Below, in pieces: positions 7,086 through 10,553 of a stretch of DNA of 33,313 bases (positions within the stretch are counted from its first letter, which is position 1; each line of letters begins with the position of its first letter). The notes below the pieces were generated by a model that was given only the letters and a program-made list of their open reading frames with translations, was not told the origin of the DNA and did not search any database. A program made the translations under genes and the position numbers. This DNA comes from Chloroflexota bacterium (GTDB lineage Bacteria > Chloroflexota > Anaerolineae > Anaerolineales > E44-bin32): contig JADFRQ010000034.1 of NCBI GenBank assembly GCA_022561215.1, positions 1 to 33,313 on the forward strand, given 5' to 3'.

Positions 7086-7760
7086 TTACGCGCGCCTGGG
7101 CTTGGGATTGGGAGTGATGGGTCGTTGATTGGTAAACGCCGATTTTGGTGAATCGGCATGCAAATGCCTGGGCTCTGAAGGATCGGAAGCGGATTTGCTG
7201 CTCGATCGGGAGGCTGTACGTGTCTTGCTACGTGCTGAGCCTGAGAGTGTAAATGAGCCGATCATCAGGATCCTGATGAGCCAGACAAGTATCGCGACAA
7301 AAACAGGTACGCTGGTAAGCAAGGCTTCCCGACCGACAATCTCATTCCCCAACCCAGAGTGGCGCAGCAGAGCGAGGGAGATGGCCCACCAGGTCAGGAT
7401 TGCGTTCATGGTCGCTGCGAGTAGCCAGGCCCCTAACAAATACCATACATCCAGGGCGGGCTTCGTGCCCCTTTGCGGAGTGAAGAGCCGAGCGATCCCT
7501 GCGAAGTCCATCCCGGCAAAGGCCAGCGCGAGAATAGTAGCCCAGCGCAGATTGGCAAATTGCAGATCGCCGATGAGATCGGTGAGTGCAAATTCTGTTG
7601 TGCTGTAATTGAAAATTTCAAATGCTATCAATGCCAGGACGATGAGCAGGCTGATAAAGGCGCCCTGTTGAACCTGCAGATGAGGTCGGATACGATGCAA
7701 GATGGAGGAGAAGCTGATGGAATTTCCAGTGGGACGAAGTCGGGTTGTGTAAGTTGCCAT
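7086..7760 (-). CDS. Four-helix membrane protein under LexA-like operators, unknown function
   Basis: 224 residues from the ATG at 7760, chosen because AGGAGG lies directly upstream; the frame is open to 7829, but that would run through the promoter. Four hydrophobic stretches are visible: around QGAFISLLIVLALIAFEIF, WATILALAFAGMDFAGIARL, WYLLGAWLLAATMNAILTWW and LLTSVPVFVAILVWLIRILM. A Ser/Arg-rich, then Pro/Lys/Arg-rich tail of about 50 residues follows, probably cytoplasmic. I recall similar uncharacterised proteins in Anaerolineae but know no function. A consensus promoter with two GAAC-N4-GTTC palindromes precedes it, and a lytic transglycosylase gene follows at 33 nt. A role in the envelope during DNA damage is a guess from context. 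Confidence 0.85.
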   Translation of the reverse strand: MATYTTRLRPTGNSISFSSILHRIRPHLQVQQGAFISLLIVLALIAFEIFNYSTTEFALTDLIGDLQFANLRWATILALAFAGMDFAGIARLFTPQRGTKPALDVWYLLGAWLLAATMNAILTWWAISLALLRHSGLGNEIVGREALLTSVPVFVAILVWLIRILMIGSFTLSGSARSKTRTASRSSSKSASDPSEPRHLHADSPKSAFTNQRPITPNPKPRRA

Positions 7761-7776
7761 GACGAACCTCCTGTAA

Positions 7777-7788
7777 GAACATACGTTC
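7777..7788 (-). promoter_or_regulatory. LexA/DinR-like operator, proximal
   Basis: GAACATACGTTC on the plus strand is a palindrome fitting the Gram-positive SOS core GAACRNRYGTTY. It lies between the predicted transcription start (near 7794) and the ribosome binding site of the 7760 gene. Its centre is exactly 30 bp from the distal box. A TetR-type repressor could also use such a site. Confidence 0.6.
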
Positions 7789-7800
7789 TGTTGTCGGCCG

Positions 7801-7829
7801 ATTATAGAACAAGCGTTCTGTGTTGTCAA
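7801..7829 (-). promoter_or_regulatory. Consensus sigma-70 promoter TTGACA-N17-TATAAT
   Basis: On the minus strand the -35 TTGACA lies at 7829-7824 and the -10 TATAAT at 7806-7801, separated by exactly 17 nt (7807-7823). Both boxes are perfect consensus. The transcription start should fall near 7794, followed by the AGGAGG and the ATG at 7760. A very strong promoter of this kind usually needs a repressor, which fits the operator in its spacer. Confidence 0.88.
7807..7818 (-). promoter_or_regulatory. LexA/DinR-like operator, in the promoter spacer
   Basis: GAACAAGCGTTC on the plus strand again fits GAACRNRYGTTY. It lies wholly between the -35 and -10 boxes, where a bound repressor would block RNA polymerase. 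With flanks, both boxes share AGAACA-NN-CGTTCTGT. Confidence 0.62.
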
Positions 7830-7909
7830 GCAGGGATCATATGTGGCGGCAGTTGATAAGCATGGGCGTATAACATCTTACTTTCAAAAGCGCAATTGAA
7901 TGGCAAACT

Positions 7910-8983
7910 ATGCCTATGGTTGCCTCGAAAAACGGTGTGTTGATGATTGCATTTGGCATTATATTGGCCAGTTGCGCTCCAGTGGCTATCGAAACGGATG
8001 GCGCAGCATCATCCGATTCCAAACCGCGCGCGAGCGACGAGAATGACTATCGGATCATTACGTTGCTCCCCAAAGATGCCATTCCCTCCATTGACAATCC
8101 CAAATTCTATTCGGCATCTGAAGCCGACGATGAGTATGCCCCGGATGAGATGGTACTCGGCGTGGTGTTTGATGGAGAGGCGCGTGCCTATTCCGTCAAT
8201 ATGTTATCTAGCCATGAGATCGTCAATGACAATATCGCCGGACGCCCAATAGCTGTAACTTGGTGACCGCTTTGTTTTACGGGGATCGTGTATTCCCGCG
8301 AAGTTGCCGGCCAAGTTTTAGAATTTGGAGTGAGCGGTAAGTTGATCATGAATGTGATGGTGATGTATGATCGCCAGACCAATTCGCTATGGAGCCAGCT
8401 TCTGGGAAGAGCTGTTGAAGGGAGCTTGGTTGGCGAGGAATTGGAATTCCTGCCTTCGTGGCAAACAACGTGGCAGGATTGGAAAACTCGCTATCCCGAG
8501 ACCAAGGTGTTGGTGAAAGGATACCGCGGACTGCGTGATCCCTATCTCAGTTATTATTCCTCAGGGCAAGCTGGAGTGATCGGGGAGACGAGGCGCGACA
8601 ATCGCCTAAATACGAAGGACTTTATCATCGGTGTCGCGGTAGGTGATTTGGCGGTGGTATACCCGTTTCGAACGCTGAATGATCAACCAGTAATCAATGA
8701 CCTCATCGGAGACCAGCCGGTTCTGGTCGTCTTCGATGCGCAGAACGCTAGTGGCGTCGTTTTCGACAGAGAAGTTGATGGGCAGATACTTTACTTTGAA
8801 GCGGTGGGGGAATTGCAGATTCGCGATGATCAGAGTGGATCGATATGGGATGGATTGACCGGAACAGGCATAAGTGGTGATTACGCGGGTGCGCAGTTGA
8901 AGCGCCTCAAAAGCACCACGGCATTCTGGTTTGGTTGGAAGGACTTCTACCCCGAAAGCAGAGTTTTCGGCCAAGAAAGTTAA
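7910..8983 (+). CDS. DUF3179 lipoprotein with in-frame TGA: candidate selenoprotein (Sec119)
   Basis: The frame runs from ATG 7910 to TAA 8981-8983 (357 residues), broken only by TGA at 8264-8266. Before it the protein reads ARAYSVNMLSSHEIVND and GRPIAVTW. After it, in the same frame, comes PLCFTGIVYSREVAGQ, then FGVSGKLIMNVMVMYDR. In DUF3179 proteins this junction is TWCPLC or TYCPLC, so TGA replaces the first Cys of a CxxC and would give U119-P-L-C122. The following 239 codons have no other stop and hold both halves of the domain to FWFGWKDFYPESRVFG. A SECIS-like hairpin lies at 8280-8298. An N-terminal lipobox (LASC, Cys22) predicts a surface lipoprotein. The function of DUF3179 is unknown to me. 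The alternative is a single nonsense change from TGC/TGT, or a base-call error. The ribosome binding site is weak. Confidence 0.72.
8280..8298 (+). promoter_or_regulatory. SECIS-like hairpin downstream of TGA 8264
   Basis: CGGGGAT (8280-8286) pairs with ATTCCCG (8292-8298): seven base pairs including one G-U, closing the 5-nt loop CGTGT (8287-8291). The apical loop starts 20 nt after the TGA, inside the 16-37 nt range I recall for bacterial SECIS elements, and has G at loop position 2 followed by U. It lies within the coding sequence, as bacterial SECIS elements do. Confidence 0.55.
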
Positions 8984-9266: not shown

Positions 9267-10553
9267 TTAAAATCCGTTTAAACCGAAGGCAGTTGATAAG
9301 AGAACAAGGAGTTTGTTACGGAGAACACTGTATGAATAATAGCGAACTGCGAGCGCATAATTAAGGGTGCACAACCTATCCTGCAGTTCGGCATCATCCA
9401 GGATACGCAGGGTTTCTTCGACGGTTGATTGAGTGATGTAGTCATTAAATTCGATCACTTTGAATCCTTTGGGCCGAATGTCCGTTGCATAAATGGCATA
9501 GTTGTTAACGACAATAGGCTTGCGATAATAAAGTGCTTCGAGGAATGCATTCCCAAATCCTTCAATCAGCGATGGATAAGTGACCAGGTCGGCATTGGGA
9601 TACGCATCTGAAAGGCTGTATATTTTTTCCCCCTCCGCGCTGGTTCCCCGGTTTTCATCAAATCGTTCGGAAGAAAATATTGTTCGAACCCCCATTTGGT
9701 CAGCGAAATTTTTAACTCTTGCTTCGTATTGATAGCCATCATCCCCGGAAGCGTGCGAGATGACCAGGCGCGCTTTCCTTCCGAGACGGCTGACAAGTTC
9801 AATGGCATGCTCAATTCCTTTGCGCTGCACAACACGTGTTGGCTGCAATATAAAAAGCTCGTCCGCATCGATACCAAGGGATTCTCGCATATCGCTTGAA
9901 TAATCATCGGCCAGCGGTGGGGGGTTCTCAAAGTCCATGACGTTGGGAACGATGGTAGAGCTGACGCCAATACGGCGGGCCAATTGATGACTCGCCGAGG
10001 AATTGATCACCACATGTTGGACGGAGGGAAGATTTGGTGGGACCGCCATATAGATATAATCCCAAATAGAATTTACCAATAAGGGCTTACGTTCCCATGT
10101 GAAATCATGATGATGCGCAATTGTTGGAATAAGTGTCTCGGCAATTAACTCCGTAAGCGCCATGGATAAGGCAATATTGAGTGGAAAGGAGAGCACATTT
10201 TGTGGAATGAGCAGCTCAATATTGAATTCTCCGATGAACGTCCTCAGCTGCTCTTTGAAGAATTTCCTCTTGGCATGAATCCAACGCGTTTGTTCCTCGG
10301 TGCGTTGATGGGAGTCGAAAAAATTAGTATAGTAGTCTCGAATTTCGGGATGCAGAAAGTGGGCCTCCTCGACGACCATGGAAATTTCTGCGGGACGGTC
10401 GGATAGGCCCGAGAAATAAAAGCAGGAATGGCCCATTTCCTGCAAAACATCCGCCCATTTCGAAGTTTCTAATGAAACCCCGTCTGTGCCTTGAAATCGA
10501 AAGGAGATAAATCCGACATTGATGGATCTGGTTAAAGATTTGATCAAAGACAA
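9267..10553 (-). CDS. GT4-type glycosyltransferase (mannosylglucosylglycerate-synthase-like)
   Basis: 428 residues with the two-Rossmann GT-B plan. The N-terminal half has NVGFISFRFQGTDGVSLETS and HHHDFTWER. The C-terminal nucleotide-sugar half has LQPTRVVQRKGIEHAIEL and the EX7E motif EGFGNAFLE. The Q-P-T-R and R-K-G residues are those that usually hold the sugar-nucleotide phosphate. The overall pattern is like GT4 enzymes I recall as annotated for mannosylglucosylglycerate synthesis, but the substrate cannot be read from sequence. The start appears to be TTG at 10553 with only a weak GGA upstream; the conserved core begins at residue 11. It is last in a three-gene glycosyltransferase run, 56 nt after its neighbour. 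Confidence 0.88.
   Translation of the reverse strand: MSLIKSLTRSINVGFISFRFQGTDGVSLETSKWADVLQEMGHSCFYFSGLSDRPAEISMVVEEAHFLHPEIRDYYTNFFDSHQRTEEQTRWIHAKRKFFKEQLRTFIGEFNIELLIPQNVLSFPLNIALSMALTELIAETLIPTIAHHHDFTWERKPLLVNSIWDYIYMAVPPNLPSVQHVVINSSASHQLARRIGVSSTIVPNVMDFENPPPLADDYSSDMRESLGIDADELFILQPTRVVQRKGIEHAIELVSRLGRKARLVISHASGDDGYQYEARVKNFADQMGVRTIFSSERFDENRGTSAEGEKIYSLSDAYPNADLVTYPSLIEGFGNAFLEALYYRKPIVVNNYAIYATDIRPKGFKVIEFNDYITQSTVEETLRILDDAELQDRLCTLNYALAVRYYSYSVLRNKLLVLLSTAFGLNGF

Follow-up and report, generated by a model that had tools for sequence, protein, structure and literature searches.

A predicted DUF3179 lipoprotein gene in a Chloroflexota genome whose in-frame UGA is very probably read as selenocysteine

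The window analysed here is a stretch of 33,313 nucleotides from a Chloroflexota bacterium (contig JADFRQ010000034.1 of assembly GCA_022561215.1), and the gene under study lies at positions 7910-8983 of its forward strand (Table 1). This frame contains exactly one internal stop, a TGA at residue 119 that is followed by 238 sense codons, and mechanical ORF calling cuts the gene in two (7910-8266 and 8288-8983). When the TGA is read through, the product matches the whole profile (positions 1-292 of 292) of the Pfam family DUF3179 (PF11376), with 312.8 bits and E = 3.2e-93 where the gathering score is 27 bits; an NCBIfam search with the window protein matched no model. The motif around the TGA is TW-U-PLC, and a lipobox read by eye as ILAS-C puts a Cys at residue 22, a residue that 25 of the 26 aligned same-family loci retain in this column. 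A reading made earlier from the letters alone (the sequence-only reading) had described a single TGA in an otherwise complete DUF3179 frame, and this was confirmed with its coordinates right. It had also placed the TGA at the first Cys of a CxxC motif, a claim borne out by the end-to-end profile match and by an alignment column occupied by TGA and Cys.

Table 1. Positions in the window of the DUF3179 gene and of the features predicted within it
Feature	Position	Strand	Details
DUF3179 lipoprotein gene, probable selenoprotein gene	7910..8983	+	357 codons if TGA is read as Sec; ends at TAA 8981-8983
Signal peptide and lipobox LAS-C, with Cys22 as predicted lipid anchor	7910..7975	+	sequence; Cys22 column conservation
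In-frame TGA, probable Sec119 of U-P-L-C motif	8264..8266	+	frame, alignment, pattern scan
Cys122, presumed resolving Cys of UxxC	8273..8275	+	26/26 aligned same-family copies
SECIS-type mRNA hairpin	8280..8298	+	stem 8280-8286/8292-8298; apical loop CGUGU 8287-8291, G at 8288
DUF3179 repeat 1, holds UxxC	8135..8533	+	isolated AF2 model pLDDT 92.9
DUF3179 repeat 2, without Cys/Sec	8597..8980	+	homologue of repeat 1 by HHalign (probability 99.9, E 1.2e-30)

Two further observations concern the flanking DNA. A minus-strand sigma-70-type promoter (7829-7801, perfect at 12/12) lies within the region 7776-7829 beside two AGAAC-N4-GTTCT palindromes (7776-7789 and 7806-7819), which we take to resemble LexA/SOS boxes, and both stand upstream of a divergent ORF (7086-7829) that has no Pfam match. 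The gene is also flanked by an exact 13-bp direct repeat, GGCAGTTGATAAG, at 7848-7860 and 9288-9300; these are the only two copies in the window, and the arrangement may be due to chance.

Homologues were aligned, as the sequence-only reading had proposed, and the column of the TGA proved to be shared by TGA and Cys. Of 26 same-family loci (30 were returned, and four with only short partial matches were omitted), 12 have TGA there, 13 have Cys and one has Arg, and the second Cys of the motif is present in every copy. The copy with Arg (CGT) in this column is a TW-x-PLC protein (L020, G021:C5) whose neighbour in the tree is a Cys copy, which suggests that a copy can keep the second Cys after losing the first redox residue. 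In a profile search DUF3179 matches were found in 14 of 27 same-family genomes, and the internal stops in 44 same-family DUF3179 rows were 17 TGA, one TAA and no TAG. DUF3179 was found in 101 of 298 genomes of the same class, where the internal stops among the matches listed, counted by eye and in any column, were 30 TGA, one TAA and no TAG. The genome that contains the window has eight DUF3179 copies, four of them with an internal TGA. The three besides the window gene (C22, C60 and C64 of this genome, G000; L034, L045) include two that were read, and these belong to different subfamilies with the motifs TWUPIC and YUIVC.

A wider scan of named genomes used the pattern T-W-x-P-x-C-[YF]-T-G, in which x was any TGN codon with the third base free, and found at least 118 loci. 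In the 120 matches listed, on 118 named contigs, this codon was TGA in 115, TGT in three, TGC in two and TGG in none; the first 80 loci taken alone held 78 TGA and two TGT. This describes one subfamily and not all of DUF3179, because the pattern fixes the flanking residues. Among the matches listed, those with TGA came from Chloroflexota (84), Zixiibacteriota (15), Methylomirabilota (6) and Fidelibacterota (Marinimicrobia; 5), with single matches in Acidobacteriota, Tectimicrobiota, Verrucomicrobiota, Planctomycetota and a GN15 bin; the single odd phyla may be mis-binned, because nearly all the genomes with the pattern are MAGs. The Cys codons among the matches listed were from Chloroflexota (three TGT and one TGC) and Acidobacteriota (one TGC). 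With 115 of 120 pattern matches among those listed carrying TGA, comparison of these sequences excludes chance as the source of TGA at the Cys column.

One stop in an otherwise intact frame nevertheless resembles a fresh nonsense mutation or a base error, and the gene could on that account be dead, its TGA being either a nonsense mutation or a miscalled TGC or TGT. The frames beyond the TGA bear on this directly. Among the matches listed, the next stop lies at least 200 codons past the TGA in 96 of the 102 TGA matches that have a stop inside the locus. The other six frames run for 198, 152, 115, 66, 34 and 31 codons, which may mean breakage or misassembly in some copies, and these six speak for decay. 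When the window gene was compared with six relatives that are 54-61% identical after the TGA, third positions differed in 0.56-0.63 of codons and second positions in 0.25-0.31, and the pattern before the TGA was much like that after it. The protein alignments of the part after the TGA have no internal gap in three of these relatives, and 1, 2 and 4 gapped residues in the rest. The sequence-only reading had named frameshifts and further stops in close relatives as signs of decay; the constraint after the TGA and the long frames in 96 of 102 matches favoured an intact gene instead. Since the codon is conserved and constraint persists past it, decay and miscalling were rejected. A dead or misread gene is hardly credible where TGA occupies the same place in 115 of 120 matches listed across Chloroflexota, Zixiibacteriota, Methylomirabilota, Fidelibacterota and others, where four of the eight copies in one genome have an internal TGA, and where the hairpin described next covaries.

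This hairpin lies within the coding sequence, its stem beginning 14 nt downstream of the TGA. The apical-loop G is present in all 115 TGA matches listed, a constancy that is partly forced by the Val/Gly codons. In an ungapped alignment of 79 genes, the seven pairs were formed in 84.8% of cells as against 75.8 +/- 0.8 in shuffles, slid pairings were formed in 24-48%, and the covariation score was 0.224 versus 0.083. A count with the structure fixed was less uniform in this set, as two of its five measures were no better than shuffles (double-changed pairs, 2 versus 2.0; further pair types, 10 versus 8.4, with 62 of 500 shuffles). Because the hairpin region is coding, synonymous codons were shuffled within columns, using 103 distinct sequences from the matches listed, of which 82 are in the main register. 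In these shuffles, which ignore sequence relatedness, two pairs stood out: the Gly wobble-base pair was formed in 81 of 82 sequences where 53.0 +/- 3.1 were expected, and the pair between the Thr wobble base and the first base of the codon at +33 in 74 of 82 where 41.5 +/- 3.8 were expected, with 0 of 1000 shuffles reaching the observed value in either case. The second pair follows codon choice, with Thr ACG accompanying Arg CGN, ACT accompanying Arg AGA and ACC accompanying Ala GCN; the eight unpaired sequences combine ACC with AGA (four), ACC with CGN (three) and ACG with GCT (one). The same two covarying pairs, which in the window gene lie at 8281/8297 and 8284/8294, emerged from the 79-gene set under codon shuffling. 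The 21 sequences in register II of the hairpin are unaffected by codon shuffles and hence uninformative. Hairpins of the 79 TGA genes had a predicted energy of -9.5 kcal/mol, those of 42 Cys homologues one of -4.9 (p = 3e-11), and the divergent UGA classes (YUAAC and YUVVC/YUIVC) have a hairpin at the same place too. As judged from these comparisons, the hairpin at 8280-8298 has the features of a bacterial SECIS element, namely a position just downstream of the UGA, a G in the apical loop and covariation.

The genes for decoding such a codon, selA, selB, selC and selD, which the sequence-only reading had singled out as a check, were all found in the same genome (3.39 Mb in 126 contigs, 90.8% complete). 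Its tRNA-Sec scored 66.3 bits with Rfam, above the cut-off, and was called by ARAGORN as tRNA-SeC with anticodon tca, and profile searches gave 344 bits for SelB, 552 bits for SelA and 368 bits for SelD. A second Rfam row for tRNA-Sec, just above the cut-off at 48.1 bits (L002), was rejected, as ARAGORN calls it tRNA-Ser. The SelD gene (L047, G000:C72:75817-76746) has an in-frame TGA of its own, and because this falls in the motif SSCAGUASKI, the selenophosphate synthetase SelD itself looks like a selenoprotein, which gives this genome a UGA gene independent of DUF3179. Beyond this genome, 50 of the at least 118 pattern loci (48 TGA, two TGT) were sampled, and SelA was found in 43 of these 50 distinct motif-bearing genomes; six of the seven that lack it are assemblies below 2 Mb. 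Within the class, SelB was detected at E <= 1e-60 in 239 of 298 genomes and, among the matches listed, in 14 of 18 genomes with TGA copies. This co-occurrence carries no weight, because SelB is so common that 14 of 18 is not above the base rate. Of the four genomes that have TGA copies and no SelB at this cut-off, two (G321 and G277) do have an ARAGORN tRNA-SeC, and G321 also has a partial SelB match of 184 bits, under the cut-off. In the other two (G212 and G216, 64% and 85% complete), the best Rfam match was a tRNA-Ser.

Because the full Sec machinery, the conserved TGA column, the covarying hairpin and the constraint after the TGA all point the same way, selenocysteine is very probably inserted at the UGA of 8264-8266, and the gene is very probably a genuine selenoprotein gene; the sequence-only reading had proposed this, and these four lines strongly support it. 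The codon would be decoded by tRNA-Sec and SelB, directed by the bacterial-type SECIS hairpin within the coding sequence; we infer this insertion in cells from sequence comparison. The identity of the inserted residue cannot be read from sequence comparison, and in known selenoprotein genes insertion of Sec is in competition with termination at UGA, so recoding of the UGA as Cys, Trp or another residue, or a programmed stop with a short product, was weighed as well. However, UGA is not globally reassigned, because the ordinary stops of DUF3179 members include TGA (e.g. L018, L019 and L025). The presence of tRNA-Sec, SelA, SelB and SelD in the genome, the SECIS-type hairpin, the alternation of the column with Cys and the protein-level constraint on the part after the TGA likewise argue against these readings. 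Both versions are very improbable beside decoding as Sec.

The distribution of Sec and Cys forms was followed in an 80-row tree (33 Sec, 46 Cys and one Arg) in which every fifth pattern locus was sampled and the midpoint root served for drawing only. Four changes separate Sec from Cys (bootstrap range 4-5), compared with about 25.5 for shuffled labels, several forks being weak, and one all-Cys clade holds 37 of the 46 Cys rows. This indicates that in the sampled DUF3179 proteins Sec is clustered and stable, with few switches.

The read-through protein was modelled with AlphaFold2 from a 66-sequence alignment (pLDDT 93.0, pTM 0.89). The domain is an internal duplication, the two repeats being 30% identical over 127 columns in HHalign. 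The only Cys or Sec residues are Cys22, Sec119 and Cys122, so that repeat 2 has none. Some other UGA-type DUF3179 copies (the tandem G193:C152:7511-7951 and 8507-8947, G246:C348:8895-9332, and G169:C257) match only about profile positions 1-150 although they sit in frames of about 330-410 aa, and these may form a subfamily whose second repeat has diverged.

A sequence search for a relative of solved structure found none, the best hit (E 0.27) being unrelated, and a Foldseek search of the PDB with the whole model gave no match at E <0.001 (best E 0.018). The high-probability matches in the latter search were Rieske proteins (2qpz, 3gce, 5bok and others, 0.98-1.00), in a list that also holds unrelated rows at probability <0.1. 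With the model of repeat 1 alone, NirD-type and Rieske ferredoxins came first (E 0.09-0.32, the best three at probability 0.90-0.99), 5cxm reaching a TM by target of 0.63 at probability 0.77. For the Rieske matches of whole protein and repeat 1, TM by target was mostly 0.49-0.63, and some rows were of low probability (2jo6 0.30, 3c0d_C 0.63). Profile comparison with HHalign gave marginal support for repeat 2 and none for repeat 1: repeat 2 scored 22.4 against Rieske where 20 column shuffles gave at most 15.3, and was also above the reversed profile, at a probability of 11.9% with one off-frame row of 32 dropped and 6.1% with that row, and repeat 1 scored 14.6, no better than chance in column shuffles that gave up to 17.5. 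Two uncharacterised giant-virus proteins in the BFVD viral fold library also resemble the DUF3179 model, A0A1V0SD44 (Indivirus) as the one clear match (E 3.1e-8) and A0A1V0SF28 (Hokovirus) at E 1.9e-3.

These model comparisons make a Rieske-like fold without the cluster possible for DUF3179. By Foldseek probability the model may resemble Rieske [2Fe-2S] ferredoxins and NirD-type Rieske-fold proteins (2qpz, 3gce, 3c0d, 5cxm, 2jo6); however, Rieske proteins carry Cys/His cluster ligands, and the window protein, which is internally duplicated, lacks the CxH...CxxH pattern of those ligands. A tentative proposal, with the chances rather against it, is that DUF3179 arose as a tandem Rieske-like duplication that lost its Fe-S ligands and has a Sec/Cys-x-x-Cys pair instead, in one repeat only, an electron-transfer fold thus turned into a selenol/thiol redox lipoprotein that many mostly uncultivated Chloroflexota, Zixiibacteriota and Marinimicrobia, some with several copies, keep almost always in its selenium form.

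The product would be an exported lipoprotein of two homologous beta-rich repeats with the Sec-x-x-Cys pair in the first only. Because this pair sits on a predicted exported lipoprotein, selenol/thiol redox chemistry is pointed to, and such chemistry is the probable role of the window protein. On the outer face of the membrane it would most likely reduce a disulfide by thiol/selenol chemistry, or a peroxide or organic oxidant, with Sec119 attacking and Cys122 resolving. Export, redox chemistry and any role towards a substrate are what we infer from the protein sequence, and both the lipobox and the UxxC motif agree with the suggestion of the sequence-only reading that DUF3179 may be a thiol/selenol redox protein outside the membrane. 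The neighbours name no substrate, because the 120 ORFs close to the first 78 UGA loci yielded no conserved operon, only scattered families. The counts were DUF3179 9, Pribosyltran 7, Iso_dh 6, AhpC-TSA 4, Redoxin 3 and Oxidored_molyb 2, from a crude ORF caller some of whose ORFs may be spurious.

The other function considered, still for a selenoprotein, is binding of a soft metal (Cu, Hg or Zn) by the UxxC site instead of redox catalysis. CPLC looks like a metal knuckle, and the published selenoprotein lists that include DUF3179 also hold the metal-handling MerT and ZntA (PMC9312934, PMC13188914). However, Cys22 would be the lipid anchor, which leaves Cys122 and Sec119 as the only two soft ligands where genuine metal sites would usually need more, and none of the 25 commonest families among the 120 neighbours handles metals. 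Metal binding is therefore considered unlikely, and redox catalysis by the Sec/Cys pair is preferred.

The sequence-only reading had presented the gene as a candidate new selenoprotein, and its newness was not supported. DUF3179/PF11376 is tabulated as a selenoprotein family with UxxC/T in a 2022 review (PMC9312934) and in a 2026 review (PMC13188914), and the former cites for it Zhang and Gladyshev 2007, on an Olavius algarvensis symbiont. PMC9230427 only lists a DUF3179 gene, and a Cys-type copy in NZ_CP147842 is annotated as "DUF3179 domain-containing (seleno)protein". In open-licence PubMed Central full text, no paper was found that joins DUF3179 with Rieske, or selenoprotein with SAR202. 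Because the family is already tabulated, the window gene adds a well-supported member to a selenoprotein family known before. What appears to be additional to the published lists is the near-fixed use of Sec in the subfamily, the four UGA genes among the eight copies of this genome, the two-repeat architecture and the tentative Rieske-like fold with the Sec/Cys pair in its first repeat. Sec would then be the rule and not the exception in this subfamily, making DUF3179 a large selenoprotein family of widespread uncultivated bacteria, and a testable fold and active site are offered for a family whose function is still given as unknown in Pfam.

Compared with known systems, the Cys-type DUF3179 proteins share the family profile of the window protein and sometimes occur as several copies in the same genomes. 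However, they have Cys in place of Sec, their motif is mostly T[FY]-C-PLC-N (mostly TF..N as against TW..[FY]TG in the Sec type), and the hairpin after the codon is weaker than in the Sec type. The tabulated DUF3179 selenoprotein (PMC9312934, PMC13188914) belongs to the same Pfam family and has the same UxxC arrangement, with Sec for the first Cys of CxxC; the review tables give one line to DUF3179, without structure, SECIS or distribution, whereas the genome studied here alone has four UGA copies.
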